In this document: in pieces, positions 11,023 to 51,224 of the stretch | How positions within the stretch are numbered: the first letter of the stretch is position 1 | How the letters are laid out: each line of letters begins with the position of its first letter | NCBI GenBank assembly: GCA_947184155.2 | Contig: CAMXCT020001506.1 | Coordinates: 29,474-93,473, forward strand | Length of the DNA: 64,000 bases | Source of the DNA: Cladocopium goreaui | Lineage: Eukaryota > Sar > Dinophyceae > Suessiales > Symbiodiniaceae | Direction: 5' to 3' | The notes under the pieces: model-generated | Database searches by the model: none | What the model was told of the DNA's origin: nothing | What the model saw: the letters and a program-made list of their open reading frames with translations, nothing else | Position numbers and translations under genes: made by a program

Positions 11023-11405
11023 GGGAATTTCAGCGAGCTGACAGTACTTTCTCTCTAGCCACCCAAACAGGACTATACTAGGTATAGTCCGGTCTGTATA
11101 CCTAATTCTCTCTTCCTCTACCCTTCCTTACGCGTCCTCTACACACGCCTGCGCAAACCTGAAAACCAAACAATGAAACCCAAAACAGTTGAAATCCAAA
11201 CCGTTGAAATCTTTGTTTTTAAGTTTTAATTTGACAACTGCAATCTTTCAGAAAGAATTGCACATGTTGGGTTGTCATGTCAGAGTATCAAAGATATATC
11301 TGAAACTGTTAGATCTGATGACTATTTGTTTCTGTGTAGCCACTCATGTTTAAGGGTGTGGTGGGAGGGTCGTCGTTCATTTCTTTGCTATGGGACTTTT
11401 CCTGT
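11023..11405 (+). repeat. Element A split repeat A1 (left terminus)
   Basis: 383 bp, the same length and by eye identical to A2 at 18871-19253. It contains a perfect hairpin at 11070-11090 (GGACTATAC, loop tag, GTATAGTCC). It is terminal in the element and is the natural place for the promoter, though no motif is recognised. Confidence 0.92.
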
Positions 11406-11587
11406 GGTAGCAGGGGCATTTTCCTGTGACCTGGATCACCGGCACCGTTGTGAGAGCCTGACAGCATTTTGGATTAGCCGAAGTTCATTTTGGACTGTTT
11501 TTCATGCTGGTGGTTTTCATTTGGAGCTGGTTGTGTACTTTTGCATTTCAATTCCAGTGTGCATCTTGTTCTGGACTTGATTCAGCA

Positions 11588-13711
11588 ATGAATTTGGACG
11601 ACGATGAGACTGAGCAGGGATTGCGACCGCTCAGAGGTTTTCGAAGACGTTGGCAGGCACCTCAGCCTTCATCTCCTGCTGATTCAGATGTTGTAGGGCT
11701 GCATGATCTTGAAGAGGGTCCTTATGAAGTAAATTCACCTTTGATGGGAGAGAGCGCTTTTGGTTCAGCAGATGTTGGCATGACTTTGGATGATTGGGAC
11801 TTTCTTGAGTCTTCACCTGTCCACGTTGAACATGTGTCAAACACTATGAAACGTTTGCTGGAGCCTGAGAGTGATTTTGCAAACCAAGAATGTCGTGTTC
11901 GAGTTTTGGACCCAAACAGCAGAGAACCGACGTGGAAAGCAGCTGCAACAGCATCTAATTTCAAGAGGATGAAACGTGACCTTGAGAAGTTGCCCTGGGA
12001 GGTTGAGGGAACTGCCTTTCGTTTACAGGACAAATGGCATGGAACTGCGCTGGCCTCGTTTGACTCCTATTTTTCTCCAACATGCATTGGTGCATTTGAT
12101 GTTTGGGATTCACAGGTTGTTAAGACCAGGCCTGAAGTGACCCGTGTTGCAGTTGATTTGCCAGTGGTGCCTTTCACCCTCAAGAGGGCCAGACGTGAGC
12201 CAGTGGATGAGGATATCAGATGTCAGGCCCTTATGAAATTTCGTGACATCATTCTCCAGGATCCTTTGAGCACTCAGCTTGGGGCCAGTTTGAGGGGACG
12301 TTTGGACCAGGGTACATCTCATGATGACATTGACCAGTCATTCAGAGATTGTTTTCGTATGAAAGCATCATCTACTTTGCAGAAGCGCTCAGCATCTCTG
12401 GCAAAGCTGTCCAAGTTTTTGAGGGCTGCAGGACAGTTATACCCACTGCGGCTGTCTGAACCTCAACTATACGCTGCACTTTGCAGTATGCGTGAAGCTG
12501 GATCGGGTGCAACTTCTGCACAGCATGTCATTGAAGCGTTGCATTTTCTTGACAGCACTGCAAAACTGAAGATTGTGGATTTGTCAGATGTTATTTCTGC
12601 AAGATGCCGTGGAGTGGCAAGGGATATGTATTTGACAAAGAGCCCATTGCAGCAGAAGCAGCCTTTAACTGTTGCACAAGTTTACAAGCTTGAGGGTGCC
12701 ATGCAATCTTCAGGGACGGTCTTGCGTTGCATCTTGGGGCAACTCTTGTTTTGCATACATGCCTGTTGTCGGTGGCGAGATGCACAGCGTTTGAAGTCTA
12801 TTTCGACTGAAACTGGCCAATGTGAATCACTTTTGTATGCCGATGCACTGACTTCCAAAACCGCCTTGACTGCAGAGGCGAAAACGAGATTCCTCCCCTA
12901 TGCCGCGATTGGCACGGGCCTGTCGGCAGAGGACTGGTCAGCCATGTGGCTTGACGCCAGGCGAGAGGAGGGGTTGACTTTTTCAGAGTTTGTGCTGCCC
13001 AGTTTTTCAGAGAAGTATGCTTGCTGGCTGGATACACCGATGAGCGCTTCTGAAGCGACAGTGTGGCTGCGGGAGTTTCTTGAGGGGTCGGAAAATTTCA
13101 GACCTGAGATGCTGGGGTCTCATTCGTGCAAGACCACGCTCCTCACGTGGGCGGGGAGGAGTGTCAGAGTGGTGTTCACTCCATCAGAACGCCGCCTGCT
13201 GGGGCACCATCTTGACCCTAGCATGAAGAGTGTCTTGTGCTACTCGCGTGAAAGCTATACCAGCCTATACTCCAAGGTGCTTGGCATGTTCCGCCTGATC
13301 AGGTCTGGCGACTACAATCCCGACCAATCGGCGATTGACAGAGTGGTGCAGATGGCCGAAGAGTCAGGCGAGGTTTATGCAGAGCCCATTCAAGAGACTG
13401 AGGGTGCAGACATCCACTCGGATTCAGAGTCCAGTGTGGCTTCAATGGAGAGCTTGCGCGTCCCGGAAGAGGGAGATGATGAGAGGAACACCCAATGCAT
13501 TTCACTGTTTCCTGCCTTTCCAGGCGTACCTGAGGCATCCATGTTTGTGCATAGGATCTCGGGTCTTGTGCACGTGGCAAACGAGGACGACGTCTTGATT
13601 TGTGGCCGACCTACATCGCTCCACTTCAAACCTTTTTCGAAGGTAGCTGACCGTGAACATTTGGAAAGCTGCCGTCAGTGCCTCAAGTCCTTTCAAAATA
13701 GGAAGGCTTGA
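11588..13711 (+). CDS. Tyrosine recombinase of element A, with Cys-rich tail
   Basis: 708 residues from ATG 11588; the frame is open further upstream, but the Asp/Glu-rich 'MNLDDDETE' start matches the 'MDDDS' start of element B. Catalytic region: Arg I in 'CCRWRDAQR' (R395); the beta-hairpin Lys in 'LTSKTAL'; box II 'HSCKTTLLTWAGR' (H512, K515), where the usual second Arg is Lys; 'LLGHHL'; and nucleophile Tyr in 'CYSRE' (Y552). After an acidic Ser/Glu linker (about 600-650) comes a C-terminal module with 'LICGR' and 'CRQCLKS'. It should join a circular cDNA to the target through short crossover sites. It lies upstream of gag with a 418-bp gap. Confidence 0.88.
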   Translation: MNLDDDETEQGLRPLRGFRRRWQAPQPSSPADSDVVGLHDLEEGPYEVNSPLMGESAFGSADVGMTLDDWDFLESSPVHVEHVSNTMKRLLEPESDFANQECRVRVLDPNSREPTWKAAATASNFKRMKRDLEKLPWEVEGTAFRLQDKWHGTALASFDSYFSPTCIGAFDVWDSQVVKTRPEVTRVAVDLPVVPFTLKRARREPVDEDIRCQALMKFRDIILQDPLSTQLGASLRGRLDQGTSHDDIDQSFRDCFRMKASSTLQKRSASLAKLSKFLRAAGQLYPLRLSEPQLYAALCSMREAGSGATSAQHVIEALHFLDSTAKLKIVDLSDVISARCRGVARDMYLTKSPLQQKQPLTVAQVYKLEGAMQSSGTVLRCILGQLLFCIHACCRWRDAQRLKSISTETGQCESLLYADALTSKTALTAEAKTRFLPYAAIGTGLSAEDWSAMWLDARREEGLTFSEFVLPSFSEKYACWLDTPMSASEATVWLREFLEGSENFRPEMLGSHSCKTTLLTWAGRSVRVVFTPSERRLLGHHLDPSMKSVLCYSRESYTSLYSKVLGMFRLIRSGDYNPDQSAIDRVVQMAEESGEVYAEPIQETEGADIHSDSESSVASMESLRVPEEGDDERNTQCISLFPAFPGVPEASMFVHRISGLVHVANEDDVLICGRPTSLHFKPFSKVADREHLESCRQCLKSFQNRKA

Positions 13712-14129
13712 TACCAGTGTGCATGCCGCGGTGAAAAACAAAATTCACTGATCAGTTGTTGAGTGAGAAGCTGAAAATCACCATGCAATCATGACCGCAT
13801 GCCAAACCATGTTGTGAGTGCAATCGCATCACCAAATCTGATTGGTGGAAAGCTTGTTGTCCAAACTCCAAGAAACTTCGTCTTGCAGTGGGACAAACCT
13901 CAAGCTCAGCTAACTGCACTTGAACGTTGACACTTGACATTTGAGCAGGTTATGCATGGGCGATCAATTCAAAATCAGCTGATACTCACCCAAAAAGTGT
14001 TTAAACATTGTCTCGGGTTTTTGTTTTTGCATGATTTTTGCACTAAACTCGGATGTGACGGAACTTTCAATAACCACGTGTTTGGTCATGATGAATGGTT
14101 TACGCTGGTTCCCGATAATCGCGGCGTTG
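13712..14129 (+). other. Spacer between recombinase and gag of element A
   Basis: 418 bp. The gag frame stays open upstream to 14031, but the likely start is ATG 14130. No conserved site was recognised; an internal promoter or trans-splice acceptor could lie here. Confidence 0.5.
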
Positions 14130-15344
14130 ATGGCTGCGTCAACTCTGGAATCGGAGGCTGCCTTCAAGGAAAGGGCATTGCAAATCGGAATAGAGGAAAG
14201 ACACGTTGAAAAGTTTGTGGAGAAGAGATTTGCAGCGTTTGGCCGCTATGCTTTTGCAGTGGTTTACTCTCCACACCATACAGATGAGGCACCATTGCGC
14301 CGATTCCTGACGGATTTGTTGGAAGAAGAGCCCAGCTTGGATCAACTGTCATGCATGCGGAGGTTGTTCTTTGAGGCGCACACGATGGCGCTGACAGATG
14401 CGCGCCAAAGGGTAGAGGCATCGCCAGACCCTGGTATGGCGACCAGGAAATTGGCCACAGCCGAACGTGTGGCACGGCAGAAAGAACAGGAGTCGAGGCT
14501 TGGAGGATTAGTCTTCACGCCGGAGACTACTCCTTCAAACCATCTGGTGGACCTCTTTGTTGAGATGTGTGAGACAGGCGTCCTCTCATACATAAAACCA
14601 GAGCAATGTTGCAGCAGGGCCCAAGAAGTCAGTGCAGTACGCAGGGACCCAACAGTGTCCACAGATGCCCTGGGAATGCTGAAGCTGGGGGCCAAAACGA
14701 TGGACCCGACATGTGAGGCCAACACTGAGTTGAAGCTGCGAGCTTGTTGGCAACGCAGAAACCTGGCTATGGATCTGGCTGGATTGGCCAGCTTCGATGT
14801 AGTTGAAGGATGGGTCCAATTCCTCTTCTTGCAGTTGTTGCGGGAGCAATCCCGGGGCTTTGCAAAGATTTCATTGCAGCAGATTTTGGACTGCGATAAA
14901 CAGTTGTTTACCCTGGCCTCGCATCGAACCATGGGGAACTTACAGAAAGGAGCTGATGAGGCAAAACCTTTGGACACCACCATCAACAGCTTGAAGGAGT
15001 CCAGCGAGATTTTGCAGTATCTCATGCCATTACCGGCAACGAGAACCCATGAGGCTCCAGCCCCTTCAGGTAGCCGCCCTGAAAAGTTCCAGAAGACCGA
15101 CAAGGGTGGCAACAAAGGTGGCAACAAGGGGTCTGGAAAGACAGGGAGCAACCCGAAGGTACAACTTCCTGAAGGTTGTACCACCCATGATGATGAGCAC
15201 AAACCTTTGTGCTTTGCATTCCAGAACAACAAATGCAAGTTCAAGGGACCGCCTGGGAAGCGTTGTGCCCGTGGGTTCCATAAGTGTTACAAGAAAGGGT
15301 GCTACAGGCCCAAGCCTTACTACCTGTGCACCCATACAGACTGA
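14130..15344 (+). CDS. Gag-like protein of element A, CCCH-type zinc finger
   Basis: 404 residues. ATG 14130 is chosen because homology to element B's gag begins right after it: the 'FKERALQIG' region matches 'FEERCQKLG'. A mostly helical body (about 1-320) should form the particle shell. A Gly/Lys-rich linker ('GNKGGNKGSGK', about 340-365) leads to a Cys/His cluster, 'LCFAFQNNKC' ... 'RCARGFHKC' ... 'GCYRPKPYYLC', of CCCH style rather than the retroviral CCHC knuckle, presumably binding RNA. The frame ends in TGA at 15342-15344 and the next ORF continues in the same frame. Confidence 0.82.
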   Translation: MAASTLESEAAFKERALQIGIEERHVEKFVEKRFAAFGRYAFAVVYSPHHTDEAPLRRFLTDLLEEEPSLDQLSCMRRLFFEAHTMALTDARQRVEASPDPGMATRKLATAERVARQKEQESRLGGLVFTPETTPSNHLVDLFVEMCETGVLSYIKPEQCCSRAQEVSAVRRDPTVSTDALGMLKLGAKTMDPTCEANTELKLRACWQRRNLAMDLAGLASFDVVEGWVQFLFLQLLREQSRGFAKISLQQILDCDKQLFTLASHRTMGNLQKGADEAKPLDTTINSLKESSEILQYLMPLPATRTHEAPAPSGSRPEKFQKTDKGGNKGGNKGSGKTGSNPKVQLPEGCTTHDDEHKPLCFAFQNNKCKFKGPPGKRCARGFHKCYKKGCYRPKPYYLCTHTD

Positions 15345-15347
15345 CTC
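15342..15347 (+). promoter_or_regulatory. Possible readthrough stop UGA-CUC between gag and pol
   Basis: Gag ends at TGA; the following frame is the pol frame with no shift and stays open from 15345 to 18389. The only ATG-like start before the methyltransferase motif would be a GTG at 15408. Stop-codon readthrough would give a Gag-Pol fusion, as in gammaretroviruses. The context UGA-CUC is close to the known leaky UGA-CUA. Readthrough itself is inference. Confidence 0.5.
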
Positions 15348-18300
15348 ACGGAGGAGACAACAGCAGTTTCACAAGCGACAGTTTCACGAGATTCACCTCC
15401 CCTATTTGTGGAAATCTTTGCAGGACGGGGAGCCTTTTCTAAGGCAGCCATACAAGCTGGGCTGCGAGTTGTGAGTGTTGACCATGAAGTGGTACAACCG
15501 TTTGCACCCATTGTGACGTTGGATCTGACCACTAAAAGTGGGGTTCAGATCATGTGGGCCATTTTGGACTCACCTGGGCTGGCAGCAGTGCATCTAGGCT
15601 TGCCCTGCGGGACAAGTAGCAGGGCTAGGGAGTTACCCTTGCCGAGGGCGTTGAGACTAGCTGGAGTGCCTGAACCTCCACCACTTCGATCGGCAGAGTA
15701 CCCATTAGGGTTACCAAACCTTAGTGCCAAGCACCAAGCCCGAGTTGACAGTGCGAATGCCTTGTACAAGCTTGCAGTTGACATAATACTTTGGTGTTAT
15801 CGGAAAGGTATTGTGATCAGCATAGAGAACCCAGCTAACAGTTGGTTGTGGGCAGTGCTGGTCAAGGTGGCGCGGGAACACTCAGAAGAGGCAGCACACG
15901 CCTTGAATCTTTTGCAGATGATACAGTTTCATGCATGCTGCCATGGATCAGCCAGGAGAAAGCATACAGGCTGGCTTTCGACAGCGGGTGTCTACGCCGC
16001 ATTGGAGGCGACATGTCGTAACGATCACAGCCATGAACCTTGGGGAGTGCGATGGCAGGCTGGCTCTTGGGTTTTCGATACATCTACAGAAGCCCATTAC
16101 CCTGCCTTGCTTGCGCAAAGAGCCACAGAGTGTTTGCTGCGTTTTTGCCATGCTCAAGGGCTGTCGGTGACAAAGCAGTTGAGGTTGCATGACCAGTCGG
16201 TCGCAGTGCAGGGTAAGCAATCGAAAAAGCACCGCCCAATTGTGCCGGAATACCATCGCATTGTCTCTGCAAAAGCTGGTATACCCCAACCTGAGGGGTC
16301 AAAGATTCTTCCTCCTCACTTTGCGGGGGAAGTAGGGCACGAGGAGGAGATTGGGGCTGGCATGGAGAAAGCGAGCAGTGCTGATACAGTCAAGTTTGGT
16401 ATTTATCATACCCCCAAGCAGTTCCTTTCCATGGCCAAGAAGGCGAACCACCCTATGGATTCAGTTGACCATTTGGAGGAGGTGACAAAATATGCACTTG
16501 ATTTCAATTTTCGTTATCCAGAGCATGTTGTCAAGTTGGAGCGGAGGAAAAACCTGCTTCAGGCAAAACTGTTGAGTGTGAAGCTTGCGGACGAAGAAAG
16601 CAGGTTGCATGCGTCTTTGCCGCCTCCACTGCAGAAGGTCCTCGAGGGGAAGAAGTTGCTTGTTTGGCAGGCCTTGCTGGAGAAATTTGGGTATGACGAC
16701 ATGGGAGTCGTACCCTTCATGATGGAAGGGGTGAAACTGGTAGGCCGACATGATGCCCCAGAGTGCTATCCACAGATGTTGAGGCCAGCCACTCTGGTGG
16801 CTGAGGATCTTAGTTCCTCCTCTGTCTGGCGCCGCAAGGCGATTGTTGGCAGGGTAGGCACTTCTGACCCTGCGCATGTGGCTCATTTGGAGGAGACGGC
16901 CTTGGAGGAATTGCAACTGGGTTTTCTTGAAGGGCCGTTTGAGAGTGAGGCCATGGTGACGGCCTACCTGGGGAGAAGCGACTGGTGTGTGGTCCGAAGA
17001 TTTGTGCTTGTTCAAGGTGCAGAGATGAAACTGCGCCCCATCGACGATTGCTTGGAGGCTCAAATCAACCATGCATTCACAGTGTCTTCTTATTTGAAGT
17101 TACAAGACATTGACTACATTGCTGGCTTGGCTCTCCGAATAGCTGAGTGCTTGGCTGGGTCGACAGAGGGCCCAGGAGTTGAGCCTTGGGTTGGAAAATG
17201 CTTGGATCTTAGCAAGGCATACAAGCAGCTTGCGGTCCACCCCAGTGACAGACACCTGGCAGTCATTTTCTATCACGACAGTGACGGCCGCCCCAAGTTC
17301 TATGTGGCCAACTCCCTTATGTTTGGATCAACGGCGGCAGTATACAGTTTCAACAGGGTCTCAAGGAGTTTGTGGTTCCTTTTCAACAAGATGTTGGTCA
17401 TACCCAGCGGGGTCTTTTTCGATGACTTCCCCATGTTTTCTCCCAGTGGCCTGGCGAGTGACGCCGACTTTGCCGCCAGCGAGCTGCTGGATCTGTTGGG
17501 CTGGAAGCATGCCAAGACTGGCACTAAGGCTTTTCCGTTTCAACCAAAGTTTCAAGTGCTGGGCTGCGTGTTGGACCTGGGCAAGGTGGACCAGGGTTAT
17601 TTCTGGCTGGAAAATAAACCAGGACGGATCGACAGGTTGGTTGCGCTTCTTCAACAGATTCGTGCAGACGGCCAGATGACCAGACATCAGGGCCAGGTGA
17701 TCCATGGGCTGATGCGCTATGCCTGTGGGTTCTTCAGTGGAAAGTTTTTGCAGCAGGTCAGCTCAGAAGTGTTGGCCATTAGCGGAGTTGGGGGTCGCAA
17801 AGGCCCGGCTGAAGTTGCGTCGTTTTGCGACTACGCAGTGGCCATGTTACAGGCGGCAAAACCGAGGTGTATCAATGTCAGCTTTGAGAAGACCCCTGTT
17901 TTAATTTTCTCAGATGGCTGCTGGGAAAAGAACTTTGCAGGCATTGGTGCAGTGGTGCTTGATGCCGCCACAGGGCAAGGCTTTGTTTGCCAGGGATGTG
18001 TCCCGGATGTGCTGCTGGACAAGTGGAAAGTGTTGGTGGGGGATCACCTGATATGCCAGATAGAGCTTTACGTGATGGTGTTGATCAGGTGGCAGTTCAG
18101 ATCCCTCCTACACAACAGACGTTCCATCTGGTGGGTTGACAATGACGCAGCGCGTTACTGTACAATCAAGGGCCAAAGTGCGAGCCCCTCCATGAGGGAT
18201 TTGGTGCGAGAGTTCTACGCTGTCGACGCTGACAGCCCGTCCTACAGCTGGATTGAGAGGGTGCCGAGCCTATCCAATATTTCTGATGGGCCATCTCGTC

Positions 18301-18389
18301 ACAATAGTGCTGAAGCCTTGAAAATCCTTGGAATCGATGCGCTAACTGAGTTTCAGCACCCTGAGGAGCTTGTCAGACGTTTGAAATAG
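15345..18389 (+). CDS. Pol of element A: methyltransferase-like, RT, RNase H
   Basis: 1014 codons after the gag stop; residues here are counted from GTG 15408. Residues 1-260: methyltransferase-like fold with motif I 'EIFAGRGAFS', a Pro-Cys loop 'GLPCGTSSRARE' (C67) and 'IENPANSWLW' (E140), resembling the PC and ENV motifs of C5-cytosine methyltransferases. A linker follows, then RT with catalytic Asp in 'DLSKAYKQL' (D600) and 'FFDDFP' (D672-D673, in place of YxDD). RNase H has Asp 'FSDGCW' (D836), Glu 'QIELYV' (E886), 'VDNDAA' (D911) and 'ISDGPSRH' (D959). DIRS elements are known to carry a Dam-like methyltransferase after RNase H; here the domain is a different type and comes first. Whether it is catalytically active cannot be told. 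Confidence 0.88.
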   Translation, partial: LTEETTAVSQATVSRDSPPLFVEIFAGRGAFSKAAIQAGLRVVSVDHEVVQPFAPIVTLDLTTKSGVQIMWAILDSPGLAAVHLGLPCGTSSRARELPLPRALRLAGVPEPPPLRSAEYPLGLPNLSAKHQARVDSANALYKLAVDIILWCYRKGIVISIENPANSWLWAVLVKVAREHSEEAAHALNLLQMIQFHACCHGSARRKHTGWLSTAGVYAALEATCRNDHSHEPWGVRWQAGSWVFDTSTEAHYPALLAQRATECLLRFCHAQGLSVTKQLRLHDQSVAVQGKQSKKHRPIVPEYHRIVSAKAGIPQPEGSKILPPHFAGEVGHEEEIGAGMEKASSADTVKFGIYHTPKQFLSMAKKANHPMDSVDHLEEVTKYALDFNFRYPEHVVKLERRKNLLQAKLLSVKLADEESRLHASLPPPLQKVLEGKKLLVWQALLEKFGYDDMGVVPFMMEGVKLVGRHDAPECYPQMLRPATLVAEDLSSSSVWRRKAIVGRVGTSDPAHVAHLEETALEELQLGFLEGPFESEAMVTAYLGRSDWCVVRRFVLVQGAEMKLRPIDDCLEAQINHAFTVSSYLKLQDIDYIAGLALRIAECLAGSTEGPGVEPWVGKCLDLSKAYKQLAVHPSDRHLAVIFYHDSDGRPKFYVANSLMFGSTAAVYSFNRVSRSLWFLFNKMLVIPSGVFFDDFPMFSPSGLASDADFAASELLDLLGWKHAKTGTKAFPFQPKFQVLGCVLDLGKVDQGYFWLENKPGRIDRLVALLQQIRADGQMTRHQGQVIHGLMRYACGFFSGKFLQQVSSEVLAISGVGGRKGPAEVASFCDYAVAMLQAAKPRCINVSFEKTPVLIFSDGCWEKNFAGIGAVVLDAATGQGFVCQGCVPDVLLDKWKVLVGDHLICQIELYVMVLIRWQFRSLLHNRRSIWWVDNDAARYCTIKGQSASPSMRDLVREFYAVDADSPSYSWIERVPSLSNISDGPSRHNSAEALKILGIDALTEFQHPEELVRRLK

Positions 18390-18406
18390 CTGGCCTGAGT
18401 TGAAAA

Positions 18407-18870
18407 GGGGGTATCTTGCAGTCCAGCTGGAAAACAATCCATACAGCTATCTCAAGATAGCATCAAGTTGCCAGAATGGACTTGAACCTACCCAAGCAGC
18501 TAGCACCCTTGTGCGAACGTGGCTACTTGAAACTTAACCCCGGATCATTCAACGCAAAGGCGTGAAAAAGCGAAGCGACCGAGTGCATCAAATCCACCGT
18601 TTTCCACATGTTCAGTTTTTGTGATTTTTGCAGTGATGTTTTTGATGTTGTTGAAGCCACCTGCAGTGTTCAGACATGTCAGACTCAGTTTTTGGATGTT
18701 CACTGTGGTTTTGGGTTCTTGTTTTTGGTTTGCGTATATGTGAGGGTATGTTTCGTGTTTATATTTTTATATACCCCACGTATGATACGTATGCGCTTGC
18801 GTAGGATCAGGACGCGATAAGGGTTGAGAGGGTTTATTGGGATACAGACTTTGGTTGTGGTATAGGAGAA
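18407..18870 (+). repeat. Element A split repeat B1
   Basis: 464 bp, starting with a G-run (GGGGGTATC) and ending GGTATAGGAGAA directly against A2. It matches B2 (19293-19874), apart from a 118-bp tandem duplication in B2. Confidence 0.92.
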
Positions 18871-19253
18871 GGGAATTTCAGCGAGCTGACAGTACTTTCT
18901 CTCTAGCCACCCAAACAGGACTATACTAGGTATAGTCCGGTCTGTATACCTAATTCTCTCTTCCTCTACCCTTCCTTACGCGTCCTCTACACACGCCTGC
19001 GCAAACCTGAAAACCAAACAATGAAACCCAAAACAGTTGAAATCCAAACCGTTGAAATCTTTGTTTTTAAGTTTTAATTTGACAACTGCAATCTTTCAGA
19101 AAGAATTGCACATGTTGGGTTGTCATGTCAGAGTATCAAAGATATATCTGAAACTGTTAGATCTGATGACTATTTGTTTCTGTGTAGCCACTCATGTTTA
19201 AGGGTGTGGTGGGAGGGTCGTCGTTCATTTCTTTGCTATGGGACTTTTCCTGT
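18871..19253 (+). repeat. Element A split repeat A2
   Basis: 383 bp copy of A1, abutting B1 without a gap, and followed at once by CCCACCC (19254-19260). It carries the same 9-bp hairpin as A1. Confidence 0.92.
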
Positions 19254-19292
19254 CCCACCCTATCAATTCCCACCCGAAAATCCCATATCAAG

Positions 19293-19874
19293 GGGGGTAT
19301 CTTGCAGTCCAGCTGGAAAACAATCCATACAGCTATCTCAAGATAGCATCAAGTTGCCAGAATGGACTTGAACCTACCCAAGCAGCTAGCACCCTTGTGC
19401 GAACGTGGCTACTTGAAACTTGCAGTCCAGCTGGAAAACAATCCATACAGCTATCTCAAGATAGCATCAAGTTGCCAGAATGGACTTGAACCTACCCAAG
19501 CAGCTAGCACCCTTGTGCGAACGTGGCTACTTGAAACTTAACCCCGGATCATTCAACGCAAAGGCGTGAAAAAGCGAAGCGACCGAGTGCATCAAATCCA
19601 CCGTTTTCCACATGTTCAGTTTTTGTGATTTTTGCAGTGATGTTTTTGATGTTGTTGAAGCCACCTGCAGTGTTCAGACATGTCAGACTCAGTTTTTGGA
19701 TGTTCACTGTGGTTTTGGGTTCTTGTTTTTGGTTTGCGTATATGTGAGGGTATGTTTCGTGTTTATATTTTTATATACCCCACGTATGATACGTATGCGC
19801 TTGCGTAGGATCAGGACGCGATAAGGGTTGAGAGGGTTTATTGGGATACAGACTTTGGTTGTGGTATAGGAGAA
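19293..19874 (+). repeat. Element A split repeat B2 (right terminus), internal duplication
   Basis: 582 bp = B1 (464) plus a 118-bp tandem duplication: 19301-19418 repeated at 19419-19536. It ends GGTATAGGAGAA at 19874, exactly as B1 ends. A 39-bp spacer (19254-19292) separates it from A2. Confidence 0.9.
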
Positions 19875-20048
19875 GTGTTGGTTGAGGTCGAAACGACTGC
19901 CATCAGCTATCTCCAGAAGGCCGAGGCAGGCATCCTTTTGAAATCCAAACGCAACGAATATCATGGACAAGGGACCATGAAGGCTCTGGAATTCGAGAAC
20001 GGCAACCTCCGAAACAAGTTCGGATCAGAAGCGATGAAAATTGTTTAA
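19875..20048 (+). pseudogene. Downstream half of the frame split by element A
   Basis: Starting at the first base after the element, the frame GTG TTG GTT is open for 57 codons to TAA at 20046-20048. It is the same frame as 10918-11022 when element A is removed with no bases added or lost. It includes 'YLQKAEAGILLKSKR' and looks helical and soluble. Family unknown. Confidence 0.5.
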
Positions 20049-24771: not shown

Positions 24772-24779
24772 CTTGTCAC

Positions 24780-25912: not shown

Positions 25913-25925
25913 GTACATTCTGGGA

Positions 25926-38720: not shown

Positions 38721-38810
38721 CATCCCATATTCCATTGCCAGTCCTTACCTCATACTTTTATTAGAGGGGTTTATCGGGGCATTCAGTAAGTCCTGGTTGA
38801 TAGAATTACT

Positions 38811-40177: not shown

Positions 40178-40180
40178 CTA
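40175..40180 (+). promoter_or_regulatory. Probable readthrough stop UGA-CUA between gag and pol
   Basis: UGA-CUA is the best-known leaky stop context in eukaryotes and viruses. Gag and pol are in one frame here, and the pol frame is open for about 29 codons before its first conserved motif. Element A has UGA-CUC in the same place. Confidence 0.6.
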
Positions 40181-42483: not shown

Positions 42484-42662
42484 TGCAGAGAATTTTACAG
42501 CCTACTCATGTCCCAGAGTTGCAAGGATGACACAGCACAAATCGAGATGAAATAGTTGTTATGTGTCACACATGAGCATCATGAAAAGCATGATTGACTC
42601 GCTATTCGTGAGGCCCTTTTGGCTGGAAAACAATTTGCGTGATTTTCGCTCATTGCTTCGCA
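42484..42662 (+). repeat. 5' LTR of copia element D
   Basis: 179 bp, TGCAGAGAATTTT...GCTTCGCA. Short for a copia LTR. No TATA box was recognised. Confidence 0.93.
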
Positions 42663-42674
42663 TGGTAGCGGAGC
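42663..42674 (+). promoter_or_regulatory. Primer-binding site of element D (initiator-Met-tRNA type)
   Basis: TGGTAGCGGAGC begins at the first base after the LTR. It resembles the complement of the 3' end of eukaryotic initiator Met-tRNA, the usual copia primer. The exact dinoflagellate tRNA was not available for comparison. Confidence 0.7.
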
Positions 42675-42942
42675 CCAATACGGGCTTTGCACCTCCTTTG
42701 GCATAACTTTCTGGCACTGACTGCTTACTGAACTTTTGGGGATTCAAACACAGGTTACAAAGACTGGCTTTTTGGACTTAGTACTGGAAGAGTTTAAGGT
42801 TCAATACAGGCGTCTGGAATTTCAGGTGTGGCTTGGTGATTCTTTCATTGGTTTGGTTTAGAGGAGCAGTTACAATTTGCATGTGCAGTTTGCCTAGCAA
42901 GATTTACAAGTGGTGATAGCTTGGGTACAGCTTGTTGGATAG

Positions 42943-45900
42943 ATGGCGGAATCGCCAACTGGAAATCCGTTTCCTGGATCCCCGTCAGGGGCAGAGGCAG
43001 CAGGTGCGATGCAGCTTGATGGAGTGGAGGTGGCCAGACGTATGCTTGCTGCAACAGAGGCAGCAGTGACCGCTGCACAGGCAGCTTCTCGAGCCGCAGA
43101 GGCGGCCAGTAGCAGGCCATCTGATGGAGATGGTAAACAATGGTGGAAGTTACTTCCAAAGCCTCCTCCCTTCGATCATGCTTCACGTGAATCTGAAATT
43201 TCCTCATGGAAAGAATGGTCATGGTTGTTTGAGCAGTACATGGCCTCAGTAGATGCTCGTTTTTCAGAAGATATCCAGCAGGTTAGATCCCGAGTTGAGC
43301 AGCCAGTGGATCCAGTTGATTTTTCAGATGGAGAGCGTCAACGAAACAGCTTTCTATACAGCCTTTTATCCAGTTTGGTGAGGCAACGTGCCCTTTTGGT
43401 TGTGAAGCAGGTCAGCAATTCAAATGGCCTTGAAGCTTACAGGTTGCTGATACAGCAGAACGAGCCCCTCAGTAAGAATCGTTCAATGGGATTGCTGAAT
43501 GTGATCATGAACTGGCCTTCCTTCAATTCGAAGGTATCTTTGATGCAGCAAGTTCTCAAACTTGAGAACGCCTACGCAGAGTATGAGAAATTGGGGTCGA
43601 AGCTCAATGACGACCTCAAGACTGCGATCCTCATGCGCAGTGTGACTGGACAGTTGAAGACGTGGCTTCAGTTACAAGTTAGCGAGAGCACAACATATGC
43701 AAAGGTCAGGGAGATGATTTTACTTTATGATGCTTCGACAACGAGATGGTCAGAGCAGATGGTTTTGGGCACGGATGCAACAGCTGGTGGAGCAGATGGG
43801 CCTACTCCTATGGAGGTGGACCGGGTGCAACCAAAGGGAAAATCAAAAGGTGGAAAAGGCAAGTCAAAGGACAAAGATGGATCCAAAGGAGGAAAATCAA
43901 AAGGAAAGTCCAAAGGCAAGGACAACAAAGGCAAGGGAAAATCCTATGACCAGAAAGGCTACAAAGGAGGTGGAAGCGAACGATCCAAGGGCAAAGGGAA
44001 GAGTGATGTGAAAACATGCTATGTGTGTGGAAAATCCGGGCATTTTGCTCGTGACTGTTGGCAGACTCAAGGGTCACAGGTTAGACAAGTGGGTTCAGAA
44101 GCTGGCCAAGCTTCAACATCAGCTTCTTCGACAGTTGGTGGAATGACAAGTGTTTCTCAACAAGGTCAACAACAGCCTGTGAATCCTACGCCTGCCACTC
44201 AGTACAGAGTTTCAAGAATCTTAGAGATTTCAGAGATTGGAGAAGATGTTCAACAACATGAAGATCTAGTCTTTGACATGCGCGGTTTCAGCCCTGTGAG
44301 TTCCAATGGACGTGTGAATGCGATTTATTTCTACATTGGTGATTCTTCAGATGAGCGTGAAGATGCTTATGATTGCAGCAGTTCAGATGCGTGTGATTTC
44401 AACAGTTTGCATGCTTGTTGTTGTTTGAATGGTGCAGTTAGAACAGTTTCAAATCAGTTTGATGAGCCTTGCAGTGATTGTGAAACTTTCAACATCCTCA
44501 TTGACAGCGGTGCGGATGCATCCATCTTCCCAAGTAGCGTGCTTGGGAAAGGTCTGACTGCTGGGACCTCAATGGGAAAATTGGTTGATGCACAAGGAGT
44601 TGAGATTCCTGTCATGGCAACAAAGGACATTGAAGTTTGCTTCAAGGATGTTTCAGGCCGAACAGTCAGGTTGAAGGAGACCGTGGCGATCTCAGACAAA
44701 GTCTCTCAGCCAATCATGTGCTTTGGTCATTTACTGCAGAGTGGTTGGGGAGTGGATGCACAGGAGCATACATTGTTTCATGCGGCTTCAGGTGTTTCAA
44801 TTCCACTGGAACTGCAACAACAATCAATGATGGTTCATGGAAGTATTCGTGCGATTCATGAGCAACTGTCAGGTGAGCATTCCTCCCACATCAGAGCCAT
44901 TCAGGCAGATGTTGATCCGAGTGTGGTGAACGGTTCAGTTGGTTGGGAGCTTGATATGCGTGGTTGTGGAGTTGGTAGACACTATGCAGAGCGATTTCAA
45001 GATCCATTGCTTGTCAAACCCGACATTTCTGGTGCATTCTACAGGACGACACTTGTGCAGGCTGATGGAAAGTGGTTTGTGCTTGAACTTTGCGAGAAAT
45101 TGGATGAGCTTGTGCAGCTTGACAGTTCTTTTCATGAGATGCAGGGAAAACGAAATGTAATCACCTTCATAACTGACAGTGAAAAAGATCCACAAACTTT
45201 GGGTTTTACTCTGATGGATGAGCAACCGGAAGTTTTTCCAGTGCAAGTTGAAATGGAGGATGATGCAGACGTTCCAGGTGATGACGCTCCAGTGGAAGGG
45301 CGTGAGATTCCTGAAGGTCAGATTGCTGTGAGGCCCATGGATGAAGAGGAGCTGAATGTCAATGGTACGTTGCTCAGAGCCTCAAGCAGTTTGGCAGCAT
45401 TGCGTGCTGGATGTGCATTTTACAATATTTCAAGTTCAGGGTCGAAACAGAAGTGCTTTCAGCGTTTGGTGGATCATGCAAAGAAGTTGGAGTTGGAAAT
45501 GGTGGTTGCAGCTTCAAGGGAGGCACAAAGGCAACAGGAACGACATCCTTTGGCCCCTCTCTCAGCTGAAGTTCCGACGGAATTTGAACAGGCACAACAT
45601 CGCCTGACGCACCTACCATATCAGTCTTGGTGTCCATCATGTGTGAGCCATAGAGCACGTGCAGATCGGCACGAAAGAACAGGTGAATCCCACTCAGGTC
45701 CTGTTCCAACAATAAGTTTCGATTACTTCTACACGAAGTCAGATGGAAAATCAGCACAGGAGGAGGAGCCAGACACAATTACAGCTTTGTTTGTGGTGGA
45801 TAGCCATACTGGTTTCGTGTCTTGCATTCCCCTGGAGAAGAAATCTCAGTTGGACCATGCAAATCGTGAGATCATCAAGTTCATACAAATGCTGGGTTGT

Positions 45901-48900
45901 TCTGAAGTGATTCTGCATTGTGATAACGAACCTGCCATTTTGCAGCTGAAACGTTTGGTGCTTCGTACAAGGCAGGCCATGGGATTGAAGACCCGTGAAA
46001 GCAGTGCAGTGGCATACGACAAAGGGAACTCCCTTGCAGAGAATGCTATAGGCCGTGTGAGGCCACTTGCATGTTCGTTGATGCATCAGGTGAGCGGCAG
46101 ATTGGGTGTCCAGCTTGGTACAAGCAGTGCAATTTGGTCGTGGTCTCTACGCCACGCTGCATGGCTGATTTCGAGGTTCAGTGTGATCCGTGGCGCTACG
46201 CCACATGAACTGGCATTTGGCAGAACTTACTCTGGAGAACTATGTGAGTTTGGAGAGCCTGTTTTTGCTTACATTGTGCCGGTTACGAAGGCCTCAGCAA
46301 AATGGAGGAGGATGATCTTTCTTGGGAAGGCTGATACTCAGAACAGTTACGTTTTGTTTGATGGCCAGGCAATTGTACTTTCGAGAAATGTCAGAAGAAT
46401 CAGCACAGCATGGAGATCACATATGGCTTACTATTTGCATTGCAAGTGTTTTTCATGGCAATACAAAGCTGGATTTGGTGCTCGCATTCTTCCCACCATG
46501 AAGAAACCAATTCCGAAGGCAGTTGAGTTTGACCTTCCACTTGGCCCCATTGAGGATACAAAATTCTATGATAAGGATGCAGATGATGTCATCAAGCATG
46601 CAGAACAGGAAAAGAAGACAGAACAAGAGCAGTTGATGATGTTTGAAAATGATCCTCTAAGGGTTGCCTTGCGTGAGAGATTGGGAGAAGGAGCAGCAGC
46701 TGAAGTTCAGGAGGAGTTTGATGATGGTCCTGCAATGCCGATGTCAAGTGTTCCTTTGCAGGTTGATGCACCGGTTTCTGAGGCGATGCAACAGCAAATG
46801 GATGATCCAGGACTGATGGTGCCAGTTACACCACCCAGAACCTATGAGGTGATCGATAGCCCCAGAATGTCTCCTGCTACTCGTCCTTCAGATGAGGCCA
46901 TTGAGGAATCATCAAAGAAGCAGCGCACTGAGGAAGCCAAGAAACAGAGGATTCATCAATTGAAGATGGAGTATGAACAGAGGCTCAGCGCTGTTCGAGT
47001 GGCCTACAAGGAGTACTTCACCATGGACGATTACTCCACTGATTTGGACGTTGACGGAGATATGGAAGATGATGTTTGGGCTGGTGAGGAGAATATTTGC
47101 CTCACTGGGATTCCAATTGAGCTGTGGTCAGATGCCCCTACAGACCGCCCACCAGAAGAACCAGCACAGTGGGTGGATGACTTGGCCGACAAGGTCGAGA
47201 TTCAGCGTCTCTGCAACATGCAGGTGCTTGTGGCGGCAAAAGATTTCTCAGGTGAAGTAACTGGAAGATTGACAACAAAGTTTGTCCGAGATTGGCGTTT
47301 GAAGGACTTTGGAGAAGGTTCAAATGTCTGCAAGAAATGGATGAGGCGATCACGTTTTGTGGCGCGGGAATTCGCCAACACCCGTCGCCTTGACACTTTC
47401 AGCCCTGCTACAGGAGCCCATACTTCGAACATCTTGCCATTGAAGTATTTGTGGATGAAAAACATGGCCGCTGGTTTGAGAGCTGATGGTGATTATTCAG
47501 TGGTTATGGGTGCTTTGGATGTTCGAGATGCGTTTTTGCAGGTTGAACAGGATGAAAAGGTGTTGGTCCATTTGCAGAATGAGCCCTTCATTATTATGCG
47601 TAATCTTCCTGGGCAACGGTTGGGGGCGAAACAATGGTATTTGCATTTGAGAGAGTTTTTGGAGAAAACCCTGGGATTTGAATTTTGTCCAGAACAACCA
47701 TGCCTTGCTCGCACCAAAGATGCAGCTATCATGATACATGTGGATGATATTTTGTATGTTGGTACAAAGCAGTTTTGGGATGGTTCATTCCTAAAGGAGA
47801 TGAAATCCAAGTTCACGGTGAGCCACGAACAACTTGAAGGTCCAGGCAGTAGCATCAAGTTTCTCAGAAGAAAGATGATTGAGACAACAGATGGACTGGT
47901 GCTCATGCCGGGAACCACAGTGGAGCGAGTTGTCAATGCATTCGAGAGTGTATTTGGCTCAGCGCGTTTACAAAAGGTTCCAAGTGACTCTGGTATCCAG
48001 CTCACAGACACTTCGCCACAACTGAATGACAGAGATTCAAGCATGTTTCGTTCAATCATTGGCCTATGTTTATACATTGGACGTGAGAGACCTGACCTCA
48101 TGTACACGATAAAGGAACTTGCTTCTCACATGTCATGTCCAACGGTTGCAGCATTAGGACGTTTGCGGAAGATGATTGGTTTTATGAAACAGGTTGGAGA
48201 CATTGGAGTGAAACTTTGTTATCCAGAACCAGGAGTTGGCAAAGTCAATACAGCAGCTGAGTGTGAGTGGATTTTAGAGAGTTTCAGCGATGCCGACTGG
48301 AACGCCAACAAGACCACGAGGCATTCAACGTCTTGTGGAGTCCACTTCATTAACAATTGCTTCATGTATGCCAGCAGCCGTAATCAGAAAGTGGTGTCCC
48401 TCAGCAGTTGTGAAAGTGAACTTCATAGCCTTGTAAGTTGTGCATGCGATGGTATTTACATCAGAGCTTGTGCAATGTTCGTGCTGAATGGGGTTGTAGA
48501 ACATTTCCAATATACTGATTCCAGTTCTGCACGTCAAATCGCGTGCCGACAAGGATGTGGCAGGGTGAGGCACGTTTCTGGGAAGTTGCTTTGGGTACAA
48601 GAGAAAACAGCAGACAAATCCTTTTCACTTCACCCTGTGGCCACCCTTCACAATGTGGCAGATATCGGAACCAAGACTCTAGCACGACAAAGGCTCTTTT
48701 ACCTCTTGCATTCATGTGGATTGGTTTATGGAGTTGATTTTTCAGATGTTGGTGAAACAGAATTCTCAGTTGTGAATGAAAGGTACACCAATGCGCAGCA
48801 GCTGAAGAAGATCTCCAAAGCGATCCTACGCATGGGTCTGGCAATGGGAATCACGGAGGGCCTTGAGTCTAGTGGTGCAATGGCTCAACAATGTGGCAAC

Positions 48901-49734
48901 AATGAGATCCAGGTCAACAAATTTCCATGGATGTTTGCATGTGTGGTTTTCCTTATTTGCATGGTGGCGTTTACAGCTTTCTGGCGGAGACTCCAAAGGT
49001 TTTTGAAGGATTGGGATGATCGAATGAAGAGACTGGAAAGCGATGTAGATTCAGCCCAAGTCCAATTGGGAGACCATTATGAATATGCAGCACATCTTTC
49101 AGGTCGCATCGATAGCTTGGATGTGAGGTGTGAAAGTATCGATGAATCTCTAGATGCACAGGCAGCTCAGATTGCAACGCTTGAGGAAGAGATGCTTGAG
49201 TCTTCCCATTCAATGGAGGAATTGATGGACTGCATAAGGTATGGCCTTATGGAGCTGGGAGGATTCGTTAGACATACCTTTCTGAACAGGGAACAGCGAT
49301 CCCATATGTTTGTGCAGGAGAGAGCAAACATGGTACTTTGGAATTTGCGTAACCAGGCAGACACAACAGATGTGGCAGAACAGAGCAATGTTGAAGGAGG
49401 AGAAGAAGAGTTGGGAACAAGTGATCCAGAGATCGAGCCGGAGTCCCACGTCTCCCCTGGACGCATTACAGCCTTGCTGGAGAACGTGAGACGTGATTTG
49501 AACATAGCGCTTCAAGCAGAGAGATGGACAGAAAGCAATCAACTACAAGGTGCAGTGAATATCCTTTTGGATGCTACGAATGGTCCGAATCCTGAAGGTC
49601 TATCAATGAGAGTTGTGAGGGATGTGAGAAATATTTTTCAGAGATTGTTCCGCATTCACAGGAACAGGGGACTTGAAGAGCGCCGTGACCGATTGAGGGT
49701 CTATGTCGAAGACATGAACTCGTTGATGCAGTGA
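42943..49734 (+). CDS. Gag-Pol polyprotein of copia element D with membrane/coiled-coil C-terminus
   Basis: 2263 residues from ATG 42943. Gag (1 to about 400) with a Lys/Gly/Ser tract and CCHC knuckle 'CYVCGKSGHFARDC' (C359). Protease 'LIDSGAD' (D521). Integrase: His/Cys region 'HRLTHLPYQSWCPSC', core acids D927 ('FDYFYT'), D994 ('HCDNEP') and Glu in 'LAENAIGR' (about 1031). RT: 'GALDVRDAFLQ' (about 1525) and 'HVDDILYV' (about 1600). RNase H: 'SFSDADWNAN' (about 1782) and 'SSCESELHS'. After it come about 350 extra residues: a single hydrophobic segment 'FACVVFLICMVAFTAFW' (about 1995-2012), a heptad-rich coiled coil, and an acidic then basic tail. Some plant copia (Sirevirus) elements carry an envelope-like ORF with such features; here it is fused in frame. 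Confidence 0.93.
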   Translation: MAESPTGNPFPGSPSGAEAAGAMQLDGVEVARRMLAATEAAVTAAQAASRAAEAASSRPSDGDGKQWWKLLPKPPPFDHASRESEISSWKEWSWLFEQYMASVDARFSEDIQQVRSRVEQPVDPVDFSDGERQRNSFLYSLLSSLVRQRALLVVKQVSNSNGLEAYRLLIQQNEPLSKNRSMGLLNVIMNWPSFNSKVSLMQQVLKLENAYAEYEKLGSKLNDDLKTAILMRSVTGQLKTWLQLQVSESTTYAKVREMILLYDASTTRWSEQMVLGTDATAGGADGPTPMEVDRVQPKGKSKGGKGKSKDKDGSKGGKSKGKSKGKDNKGKGKSYDQKGYKGGGSERSKGKGKSDVKTCYVCGKSGHFARDCWQTQGSQVRQVGSEAGQASTSASSTVGGMTSVSQQGQQQPVNPTPATQYRVSRILEISEIGEDVQQHEDLVFDMRGFSPVSSNGRVNAIYFYIGDSSDEREDAYDCSSSDACDFNSLHACCCLNGAVRTVSNQFDEPCSDCETFNILIDSGADASIFPSSVLGKGLTAGTSMGKLVDAQGVEIPVMATKDIEVCFKDVSGRTVRLKETVAISDKVSQPIMCFGHLLQSGWGVDAQEHTLFHAASGVSIPLELQQQSMMVHGSIRAIHEQLSGEHSSHIRAIQADVDPSVVNGSVGWELDMRGCGVGRHYAERFQDPLLVKPDISGAFYRTTLVQADGKWFVLELCEKLDELVQLDSSFHEMQGKRNVITFITDSEKDPQTLGFTLMDEQPEVFPVQVEMEDDADVPGDDAPVEGREIPEGQIAVRPMDEEELNVNGTLLRASSSLAALRAGCAFYNISSSGSKQKCFQRLVDHAKKLELEMVVAASREAQRQQERHPLAPLSAEVPTEFEQAQHRLTHLPYQSWCPSCVSHRARADRHERTGESHSGPVPTISFDYFYTKSDGKSAQEEEPDTITALFVVDSHTGFVSCIPLEKKSQLDHANREIIKFIQMLGCSEVILHCDNEPAILQLKRLVLRTRQAMGLKTRESSAVAYDKGNSLAENAIGRVRPLACSLMHQVSGRLGVQLGTSSAIWSWSLRHAAWLISRFSVIRGATPHELAFGRTYSGELCEFGEPVFAYIVPVTKASAKWRRMIFLGKADTQNSYVLFDGQAIVLSRNVRRISTAWRSHMAYYLHCKCFSWQYKAGFGARILPTMKKPIPKAVEFDLPLGPIEDTKFYDKDADDVIKHAEQEKKTEQEQLMMFENDPLRVALRERLGEGAAAEVQEEFDDGPAMPMSSVPLQVDAPVSEAMQQQMDDPGLMVPVTPPRTYEVIDSPRMSPATRPSDEAIEESSKKQRTEEAKKQRIHQLKMEYEQRLSAVRVAYKEYFTMDDYSTDLDVDGDMEDDVWAGEENICLTGIPIELWSDAPTDRPPEEPAQWVDDLADKVEIQRLCNMQVLVAAKDFSGEVTGRLTTKFVRDWRLKDFGEGSNVCKKWMRRSRFVAREFANTRRLDTFSPATGAHTSNILPLKYLWMKNMAAGLRADGDYSVVMGALDVRDAFLQVEQDEKVLVHLQNEPFIIMRNLPGQRLGAKQWYLHLREFLEKTLGFEFCPEQPCLARTKDAAIMIHVDDILYVGTKQFWDGSFLKEMKSKFTVSHEQLEGPGSSIKFLRRKMIETTDGLVLMPGTTVERVVNAFESVFGSARLQKVPSDSGIQLTDTSPQLNDRDSSMFRSIIGLCLYIGRERPDLMYTIKELASHMSCPTVAALGRLRKMIGFMKQVGDIGVKLCYPEPGVGKVNTAAECEWILESFSDADWNANKTTRHSTSCGVHFINNCFMYASSRNQKVVSLSSCESELHSLVSCACDGIYIRACAMFVLNGVVEHFQYTDSSSARQIACRQGCGRVRHVSGKLLWVQEKTADKSFSLHPVATLHNVADIGTKTLARQRLFYLLHSCGLVYGVDFSDVGETEFSVVNERYTNAQQLKKISKAILRMGLAMGITEGLESSGAMAQQCGNNEIQVNKFPWMFACVVFLICMVAFTAFWRRLQRFLKDWDDRMKRLESDVDSAQVQLGDHYEYAAHLSGRIDSLDVRCESIDESLDAQAAQIATLEEEMLESSHSMEELMDCIRYGLMELGGFVRHTFLNREQRSHMFVQERANMVLWNLRNQADTTDVAEQSNVEGGEEELGTSDPEIEPESHVSPGRITALLENVRRDLNIALQAERWTESNQLQGAVNILLDATNGPNPEGLSMRVVRDVRNIFQRLFRIHRNRGLEERRDRLRVYVEDMNSLMQ

Positions 49735-49834
49735 TCGAATGAAAGCTGGGACAGAGAATGCTTGCTCAGCAAAACAGTGCTGAATATGCGTTGGAAAGTT
49801 GAAAGTTGGAATTCGAGTGATGCACTCAAATCCC

Positions 49835-49844
49835 AAAGGAGGAG
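49835..49844 (+). promoter_or_regulatory. Polypurine tract of element D
   Basis: AAAGGAGGAG lies directly against the 3' LTR, the expected plus-strand primer. Confidence 0.8.
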
Positions 49845-50023
49845 TGCAGAGAATTTTACAGCCTACTCATGTCCCAGAGTTGCAAGGATGACACAGCACA
49901 AATCGAGATGAAATAGTTGTTATGTGTCACACATGAGCATCATGAAAAGCATGATTGACTCGTTATTCGTGAGGCCCTTTTGGCTGGAAAACAATTTGCG
50001 TGATTTTCGCTCATTGCTTCGCA
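49845..50023 (+). repeat. 3' LTR of copia element D
   Basis: 179 bp, matching the 5' LTR except for the one noted base. Followed by GAGAA (50024-50028). Confidence 0.93.
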
Positions 50024-50028
50024 GAGAA

Positions 50029-50830
50029 GCTTTTAAAGATTTGCAATACAGAACAGCGTGTTCAAGACCTACTTGCAATGCTCAATGCCACCTTGCAGGC
50101 GGGTGAACTGGGAAAACAAGACGCGCTTATTTTGCGCGGCAAACTGGGCTTTGCAGATTCCTTCTTACATGGAAGGTTGGGCTTGATGGTTTTGAAACAG
50201 CTTTCTGAACATGCACATGGGCGCAGTGCAAAGCTTAGAGAAGAACTTGTAATCGGACTACATGCAATGGTTCAACGCTTGACTTTGTGTGGCCCTCGCG
50301 TCGTCTCTGCAAAGGCGATGCAACAATGGTTTGTGTTTACAGATGCGGCCTATGAACCCGAATTGCATACTGGAGGTTTGGGTGCAGCAGTCGTCGATGA
50401 CAATGGCAAATGCGTTGGCTGGTTTGGCCTTCCGCTTGATGAGTCACAGTGCGAAAAGTTTGGATCACTGGATCGGCAAACTATAATTTATGAACTGGAG
50501 CTTGCAGCAGCCGTTCTGGCACTTGACTTCTGGGCGGACAAAATGAAAGATGGATTGCAAGTGTGTTATGGTGACAATGATGGAGTGCGATTCTCTTTGA
50601 TACGTGGTTCATGCTTGAGCAAACATGCTTCAGCTCTTATGAGATACCATTTGAGCCGAGAAGCTACCAACAACTTGTGCACTTGGTTTGCGAGGGTGCC
50701 TACTGAGGCAAACTTGGGTGACTACCCATCCAGAAATGTTCCACATGCTTTGCTGACGGAAGATATCAATGAATCTACAGCTGCCTCGTTTTGGTTTGAG
50801 CGCTTGGTTCAATCTTTGCAGGCGGCCTAA
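50029..50830 (+). CDS. Pol of element B, 3' part: RNase H
   Basis: Continues the pol frame from 42483 after the GAGAA duplicate, giving 'EKLLKICNTEQRVQ'. A connection region ('ILRGKLGFADSFLHGR') precedes RNase H: Asp in 'VFTDAAYEPE', Glu in 'IYELELAAA', Asp in 'YGDNDGVRF', and 'LGDYPSRN'. Stop TAA at 50828-50830, 17 bp before B1. All four acidic positions match element A. Confidence 0.85.
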
Positions 50831-50847: not shown

Positions 50848-50931
50848 AGCCAGTCAGCATCGGCCCCCATGCAAAAAGAAGTGCTTGTCAGCTTCCTGAG
50901 TTGTTCGTTGTGGCCAACATGCAAGCCAGAC
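50848..50931 (+). repeat. Element B split repeat B1
   Basis: 84 bp, preceded by GGGGGG; by eye identical to 51141-51224; ends GCAAGCCAGAC against A2. Confidence 0.9.
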
Positions 50932-51076
50932 GATGCAGCTCACTTTAGTGATCGAATAGTCTTGCTAGCATGTTCAGGAATTGAGATTCCGGGTCACAAC
51001 TGTTTGATCCTGTAGCTTTATGTCTCTCAAGGGAGGGCGAGGTGGGTGCCGCTGTTACTTTTAGAGTTTGAAAGCG
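50932..51076 (+). repeat. Element B split repeat A2
   Basis: 145-bp copy of A1, followed at once by CCCACCC (51077-51083). Confidence 0.9.
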
Positions 51077-51140
51077 CCCACCCAAAGTTGCACTTTCTCT
51101 TTTCCCAGCCCAGCGCTTTCCTAGGCCAGACCCTAGGCCT

Positions 51141-51224
51141 AGCCAGTCAGCATCGGCCCCCATGCAAAAAGAAGTGCTTGTCAGCTTCCTGAGTTGTTCG
51201 TTGTGGCCAACATGCAAGCCAGAC
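51141..51224 (+). repeat. Element B split repeat B2 (right terminus)
   Basis: 84-bp copy of B1 after a 64-bp spacer (51077-51140) that contains CCTAGGCCAGACCCTAGG. Right flank begins TAGATTGG. Confidence 0.9.

Follow-up and report, generated by a model that had tools for sequence, protein, structure and literature searches.

Recombinase-first retroelements with a methyltransferase-like domain in the dinoflagellate Cladocopium goreaui

Introduction

Do three retroelements that share a recombinase-first gene order descend from one ancestor, or was each joined from unrelated parts? The question is raised by a 64,000-nt stretch of the Cladocopium goreaui genome (contig CAMXCT020001506.1, positions 29,474 to 93,473), referred to as the window and, for its contig, as contig 1506. 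The window carries three elements, A, B and C, in which a tyrosine recombinase (YR) gene precedes gag and a pol gene encoding a methyltransferase-like (MT-like) domain, reverse transcriptase (RT) and RNase H. In PAT and Ngaro elements, the YR usually lies downstream. An initial annotation, made from the letters of the window, proposed a distinct lineage. We consider it likely that the three elements represent subfamilies of a single lineage of YR retrotransposons with split direct repeats, and hold the full account given below, including its proposed replication cycle, with the same confidence.

Positions are those of the window, and all features in it are on the forward strand. Searches of the organism's own genome covered 1.17 Gb, and the numbers of matches that they list are lower bounds. 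Comparisons with published elements draw on the relevant passages of the cited papers.

Element organization

Reading of open reading frames (ORFs) and a repeat search give one common order in A, B and C: A1, YR, gag, MT-like/RT/RNase H, B1-A2-B2. Exact repeats and ORF order confirm the annotation on this point.

Element A is complete (11023–19875, from its ORFs and exact repeats). Repeat A1 (11023–11405) equals A2 (18871–19253) over 383 nt at 100% identity, and B1 (18415–18871) equals B2 (19419–19875) over 457 nt, also at 100%, which suggests a recent insertion. Between the repeats lie a YR ORF of 749 aa (11462–13711); a gag-like ORF of 453 aa with a Cys/His-rich end (13983–15344), closed by an in-frame TGA followed by CT; and a pol frame of 1014 aa (15345–18389) with the MT-like domain at residues ~15–270, RT at ~430–790 and RNase H at ~840–1000. 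A third, partial copy of the start of the B repeat (99%, 132 nt) is found at 19290–19421, between A2 and B2.

Element B (27392–51224, from its repeats and a copy without inserts) carries element C and a long terminal repeat (LTR) element; less both inserts it measures about 7.6 kb, not 24 kb. Its A1 (27392–27536) and A2 (50932–51076) match exactly over 145 nt, as do B1 (50848–50931) and B2 (51141–51224) over 84 nt. The YR ORF has 789 aa (27525–29894; ORF and profile comparison). Element C interrupts the gag-like ORF, leaving a 5' part at 30244–31235 (ORF and flank alignment) and a 3' part at 39967–40177 that ends in TGA-CTA. The LTR element interrupts pol, with the MT-like domain and RT at 40178–42483 (ORF and profile comparison) and the remainder, comprising the end of RT and RNase H, at 50023–50830 (ORF and comparison with another copy).

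Element C (31236–39966, from its repeats and flank alignment) is nested in the gag of B. Its A1 (31236–31325) is identical to A2 (39047–39136) over 90 nt, and within the B1-A2-B2 block (38811–39966) B1 (38811–39049) and B2 (39735–39966) are 95% identical. It has a YR ORF of 540 aa (31723–33345; ORF and profile comparison) and a gag-like ORF of 432 aa (34178–35476). The MT-like part of pol (35371–36372) is followed by RT and RNase H in a separate ORF of 701 aa (36615–38720) with a weak RVT_1 match. The annotation had this pol frame broken after the MT-like part, which is true of the window copy; there the gag/pol junction is also off-frame. Relatives of C elsewhere in the genome are intact and keep an open pol of 1095 aa. 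The annotation listed three separate elements; C sits within B, and the LTR element splits B further.

Long exact repeats, found in the same arrangement in other copies, rule out chance repeats. Inverted-repeat ends of the DIRS1-like kind are rejected, there being no inverted pair of at least 40 nt in 10500–52000.

Copies elsewhere in the genome

The pol of A had 55 genome matches, which merge into 45 copies. For 38 of them a YR is listed upstream in the same orientation; none has one downstream or on the opposite strand, and in the other 7 no YR is listed within 8 kb. The gap from YR to pol is 1.4–3.2 kb (median 1.9 kb). This count was made for the A family. It rules out a one-off rearrangement, as the annotation had argued, and individual copies of A, B and C agree with it.

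For B-type and C-type pol, the genome holds at least 62 and at least 64 matches, respectively. One B-family copy (L039, contig 37) is free of both inserts; it keeps the YR-gag-pol order and the terminal repeats (A1/A2 142 nt, 100%; B1/B2 81 nt, 98.8%). At five further loci (L054–L058, on contigs 5990, 2956, 203, 2411 and 1600), YR matches precede gag matches in every case, and at the three C-type loci among them the MT-like matches follow gag; L057 additionally begins with a fragment of a different pol. Four copies have, at their 5' end, the same A2 as in the 3' locus. Among eukprot proteins, YR, MT-like and pol gene models carry adjacent numbers (s2882 g10/g11, s704 g29/g28/g27, s171 g29/g30, s290 g14/g13, s464 g30/g29), which, going by gene-model names, suggests the same order. 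Named relatives in the protein listings come from Symbiodinium sp. CCMP2592 (P0118; pol search) and Durusdinium trenchii (P0241; YR search).

Some copies count against a universal layout. Of the seven A-family copies with no listed YR, two begin less than 1.2 kb from a contig end and one (L054) shows YR pieces upstream once its DNA is read. Five of 30 C-type loci have no spaced B1/B2 pair, and four more hit the edge of the locus or have an unresolved end.

Two copies stand beside or inside tandem repeat arrays (L039, 7979–8666; L056, 180–624, with L038 after B2), the second with array on both sides. Two pairs of loci on different contigs (L022/L030 and L034/L036) share a right flank and may be alleles or segmental duplicates, not separate insertions.

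Common ancestry

Profile comparison links the elements in each of three domains. For the MT-like domain, it gave 100% (A-B), 98.3% (A-C) and 94.2% (B-C); for RT, 100%, 96.7% and 95.7%; and for YR, 99.95%, 98.4% and 95.1%. Six control comparisons, made against sets that were unrelated or reversed, stayed at 0.09–0.57%. A and B are the closest pair throughout. Because the links hold in MT-like domain, RT and YR alike, the modules have travelled together, and by these profiles the elements are not unrelated recombinases and RTs joined by chance. The annotation's distinct lineage stands in so far as the three form a single group whose recombinase-first layout is stable, but that layout is not wholly new, being published in part (de Mendoza et al., 2018; PMC5890265).

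The proteins themselves are divergent. A fold search with the predicted structure gives the recombinase of A a Cre fold. Lysine stands where the second catalytic arginine of a YR is expected in 53 of 53 rows of an alignment of the query with 52 of 118 YR homologues. A strict text search for the YR motif in 121 proteins found the lysine form in 62, the arginine form in none and no motif in 59, many of which stand in the alignment with lysine at that position. This substitution leaves recombinase activity uncertain. Pfam gave no match for the 53 YR rows, and no convincing match for the YR ORFs, the gag ORFs or the MT-like part, apart from two weak zinc-finger matches in the gag of C. RVT_1 matches in pol are weak (E = 0.0066, 0.0013 and 0.00033 in A, B and C) and all below the curated cut-off; RT and RNase H are supported by predicted fold. 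The best PDB profile hits were at E = 0.14 for YR (a proteasome subunit) and E = 0.45 for pol (motif I of a methyltransferase), with none for the MT-like domain. Rfam and viral-contig searches led nowhere. Tyrosine recombinase, RT and RNase H occur together here as they do in YR retrotransposons with split direct repeats (PAT/Ngaro/VIPER-like).

The methyltransferase-like domain

The domain ahead of RT in pol is common to A, B and C. A combined A+B+C profile scored 88.5% against a set of seven C5 methylases (Dcm plus six from phages), in an alignment that runs from motif I through the Pro-Cys motif IV, and all profiles that include A gave 88–91%. Five Dam-type enzymes gave 2.4% against the combined profile (0.09–3.1% across profiles), and the reversed C5 set gave 0.6%. 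With 2–3% against 88%, a Dam-type methyltransferase is rejected, and the annotation's description of the domain as non-Dam is sustained.

The C5 feature order is present, with what we take to be motif I, the cysteine of motif IV and the glutamate of motif VI; the assignment of motifs II and III is likewise ours. Nine aligned sequences from A, B and C have the glycine and aspartate of motifs I–III, the cysteine and the glutamate in common. Across 65 rows of pol (the query and 64 of the 120 homologues listed), the cysteine is conserved in 64, the glutamate in 65, the aspartate of motifs II/III in 64 and the glycine of motif I in 52, with 13 gaps.

Substitution rates, taken from pairs with dS of 0.02–1.5, indicate that the domain is under purifying selection. 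Nine copies of C gave a median dN/dS of 0.083 for the domain (35 of 36 pairs), and eight copies of A gave 0.026 (5 of 28 pairs). The corresponding values for C and A, respectively, were 0.048 and 0.096 in RT and 0.066 and 0.090 in RNase H; in C, the linker that precedes the domain gave 0.43. Purifying selection and the shared motifs together argue that the domain is kept and probably catalytic, in which case it would carry out C5 methylation.

Several results weigh on the other side. The domain has no Pfam or PDB sequence match. The profile of B alone reaches 0.09% and that of C alone 0.6% against the C5 methylases; both reach A, and only profiles containing A match. True C5 and Dam sets score 17.5% against each other, so features shared by methyltransferases give some signal. 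The usual proline before the cysteine is absent in B and C. In the predicted model of pol, the MT-like part is confident, with alternating strands and helices, and fold lists for whole pol are filled by RTs. PHROGs returned one DNA methyltransferase family, at E = 0.057 only, and a phage tblastn search with the domain led nowhere. The lack of any family match, and of a C5 match for B and C by themselves, would suit a domain with a Rossmann-like core that has a structural role or binds nucleic acid and is not a working methyltransferase. We regard this as unlikely given the residues conserved across 65 rows and common to all three subfamilies, the strong purifying selection and the preference for C5 over Dam profiles.

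Relation to known elements

The nearest published elements are SymbioDIRS-Dnmt3 of Symbiodinium, which combine A-coding-B-A-B repeats with a YR ORF of its own and a Pol ORF that includes a C5 DNA methyltransferase (DNMT), in two architectures that differ in Pol domain order and in the order of recombinase and Pol (PMC5890265). PF00145 was used to detect that DNMT, which groups inside eukaryotic Dnmt3, and some DIRS elements were scored as lacking one (PMC5890265).

A, B and C might simply be copies of one of these two architectures, in which case only the copies would be new. They share with SymbioDIRS-Dnmt3 the dinoflagellate host, the repeat arrangement, the separate YR ORF, the methyltransferase domain in Pol with RT and the shuffled order of YR and Pol, so the annotated layout comes close to one already published. 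The domains differ, to judge from the published description: theirs is a Dnmt3 detectable with PF00145, whereas that of A, B and C is far more divergent and C5-like. PF00145 had no match in the pol of A, B or C at E = 0.1 or in nine domain sequences at E = 1; nor does the label appear in the two protein listings, which show 120 of the 148 pol homologues and 120 of the 158 proteins from a search with the domain alignment. Since PF00145/Dnmt3 marks their elements and is not matched in ours, A, B and C are, on present evidence, not the same element as SymbioDIRS-Dnmt3 but probably relatives of it, and an identity of the two seems doubtful to us. A, B and C may instead be among the elements scored DNMT-less (PMC5890265).

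Other known systems fit less closely. YR retrotransposons with split direct repeats share the A1 ... B1-A2-B2 arrangement, a gag-like ORF, RT/RNase H and YR (PMC6681497); in A, B and C the YR comes first, before gag, the MT-like domain precedes RT and lysine replaces the second arginine of the YR. DIRS1-like elements also combine YR, gag, RT/RNase H and a methyltransferase domain, but with inverted repeats, internal complementary regions and the methyltransferase after RNase H (PMC3266345), whereas A, B and C have direct repeats, the domain before RT and a pol that ends soon after RNase H. The ORF order of DIRS1-like elements is gag, recombinase, pol (PMC3266345). The annotation, which had DIRS elements carry gag and pol with the recombinase downstream, therefore overstated the contrast. 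KnitGypsy-Dnmt3 of Klebsormidium has a C5 methyltransferase in Pol and a DIRS-like repeat arrangement but Gypsy domains, and the relevant passages make no mention of a YR (PMC5890265).

Among the titles and abstracts listed in literature searches, no other describes such elements. The divergent MT-like domain, the lysine at the second arginine position and the TGA-CT junction between gag and pol appear undescribed in that literature; the words gag, readthrough and UGA are absent from the main text of PMC5890265. The chances seem to us about even that a dinoflagellate recombinase-first YR group gained a C5-MT-like domain independently of, or long before, the SymbioDIRS Dnmt3, and that this domain diverged past recognition, so that elements scored DNMT-less carry one, together with a conserved UGA-CU Gag-Pol readthrough and lysine for the second catalytic arginine.

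The gag/pol junction

In three diverged subfamilies, gag and pol share one frame divided by a single TGA. The TGA is followed by CT at 27 of 27 retrieved loci with a pol frame of at least 1000 aa (8 A-type, 18 C-type and 1 B-type), compared with 1 of 33 far ends of long ORFs, a control set that includes premature stops, and 0 of 6 YR ends. The B-type copy L039 reads TGA-CTAG, as does B in the window. UGA-CUA is a leaky stop context. Two more C-type copies (L056 and L057) also have TGA-CT; L040, L041 and L055 repeat copies already counted, and the junction of L058 is not visible. The conserved single in-frame TGA-CT suggests that Gag-Pol is made by readthrough.

This reading has its own difficulties. 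The 27 loci are related and B is counted once, so three subfamilies is the better count. RNA structure after the TGA is unremarkable in six of seven sequences (z = –0.41 to 1.30); one B copy gave z = –2.16, and there is no common signal. An early methionine in the pol frame of four of the five copies inspected (residue 6 in L002, 18 in L039, 46 in L010 and 42 in L034) would permit initiation there. Dinoflagellates trans-splice spliced leaders, so Pol might instead come from a message of its own, or from initiation or reinitiation near its start. In element A of the window, the first methionine of the pol frame is residue 70, beyond motif I; this, and the one frame with the same TGA-CT at all 27 loci of three diverged subfamilies, speak against such a route. 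We think a separate route to Pol improbable and favour readthrough.

Insertion and proposed cycle

The joined flanks of C align in register with a C-free copy of B, and neither a duplication nor a gap marks the point where they meet; a clean joint scores 163, and one with the three shared bases added scores 158. Insertion without target duplication, as in YR retrotransposons with split direct repeats, was seen in this one case, by comparison with a single C-free copy. In other copies, the ends differ by a few bases assignable to element or target. A clean insertion fits recombinase crossover of a putative circle.

These observations suggest the following cycle. Read from its 5' end, the element RNA would encode a recombinase of the Cre fold, then a Gag whose end is rich in Cys and His, then Pol, the last produced as Gag-Pol by ribosomal readthrough of one UGA-CU stop. 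Pol would comprise a divergent C5-methyltransferase-like domain, reverse transcriptase and RNase H. Copying of the RNA, with the help of the A1 ... B1-A2-B2 repeats, would yield a closed circle of DNA that has a single B-A junction, at which the recombinase would insert the circle by crossover, without target duplication. The MT-like domain most likely would methylate cytosines of the new cDNA. The sequence itself shows the layout with its repeats, the common descent of the three, the purifying selection, the TGA-CT within the frame and the way C entered B without duplication; recombinase and RT/RNase H are assigned from predicted folds. Readthrough, circle and methylation are inferred.

Surroundings and significance

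The LTR element inside the pol of B (42484–50022, from its ORF and repeats) stands outside the YR group. In its 2263-aa ORF, Pfam finds a zinc knuckle (E = 1.1e-05) and, weakly, integrase; by reading of the protein the element is copia-like. Of several candidate target duplications around it, the 6-bp AGAGAA is the longest. Another copia-type pol ORF (1579 aa; RVT_2, E = 6.4e-17) lies at 3266–8005. Pieces of a kinesin motor domain in two frames at 60763–63077 (PF00225, E = 1.9e-20 and 2.4e-07) are probably exons of a host gene. Outside the elements, a 96-nt direct repeat (97%) occurs at 25096–25191 and 25818–25913, 722 nt apart.

Retroelements with a potential to methylate their own DNA are rare; for dinoflagellates, one study in the literature covered describes them (PMC5890265). 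If the MT-like domain is active, self-methylation in these elements would have a longer history and a wider spread than searches with PF00145 revealed, which would bear on the question of why CG sites in Symbiodinium are mostly methylated (PMC5890265). A conserved UGA-CU at the gag/pol junction would be a natural recoding signal, testable in cells or extracts. With many open-frame copies in the genome, questions of selection, transcription and methylation in these elements are directly testable.

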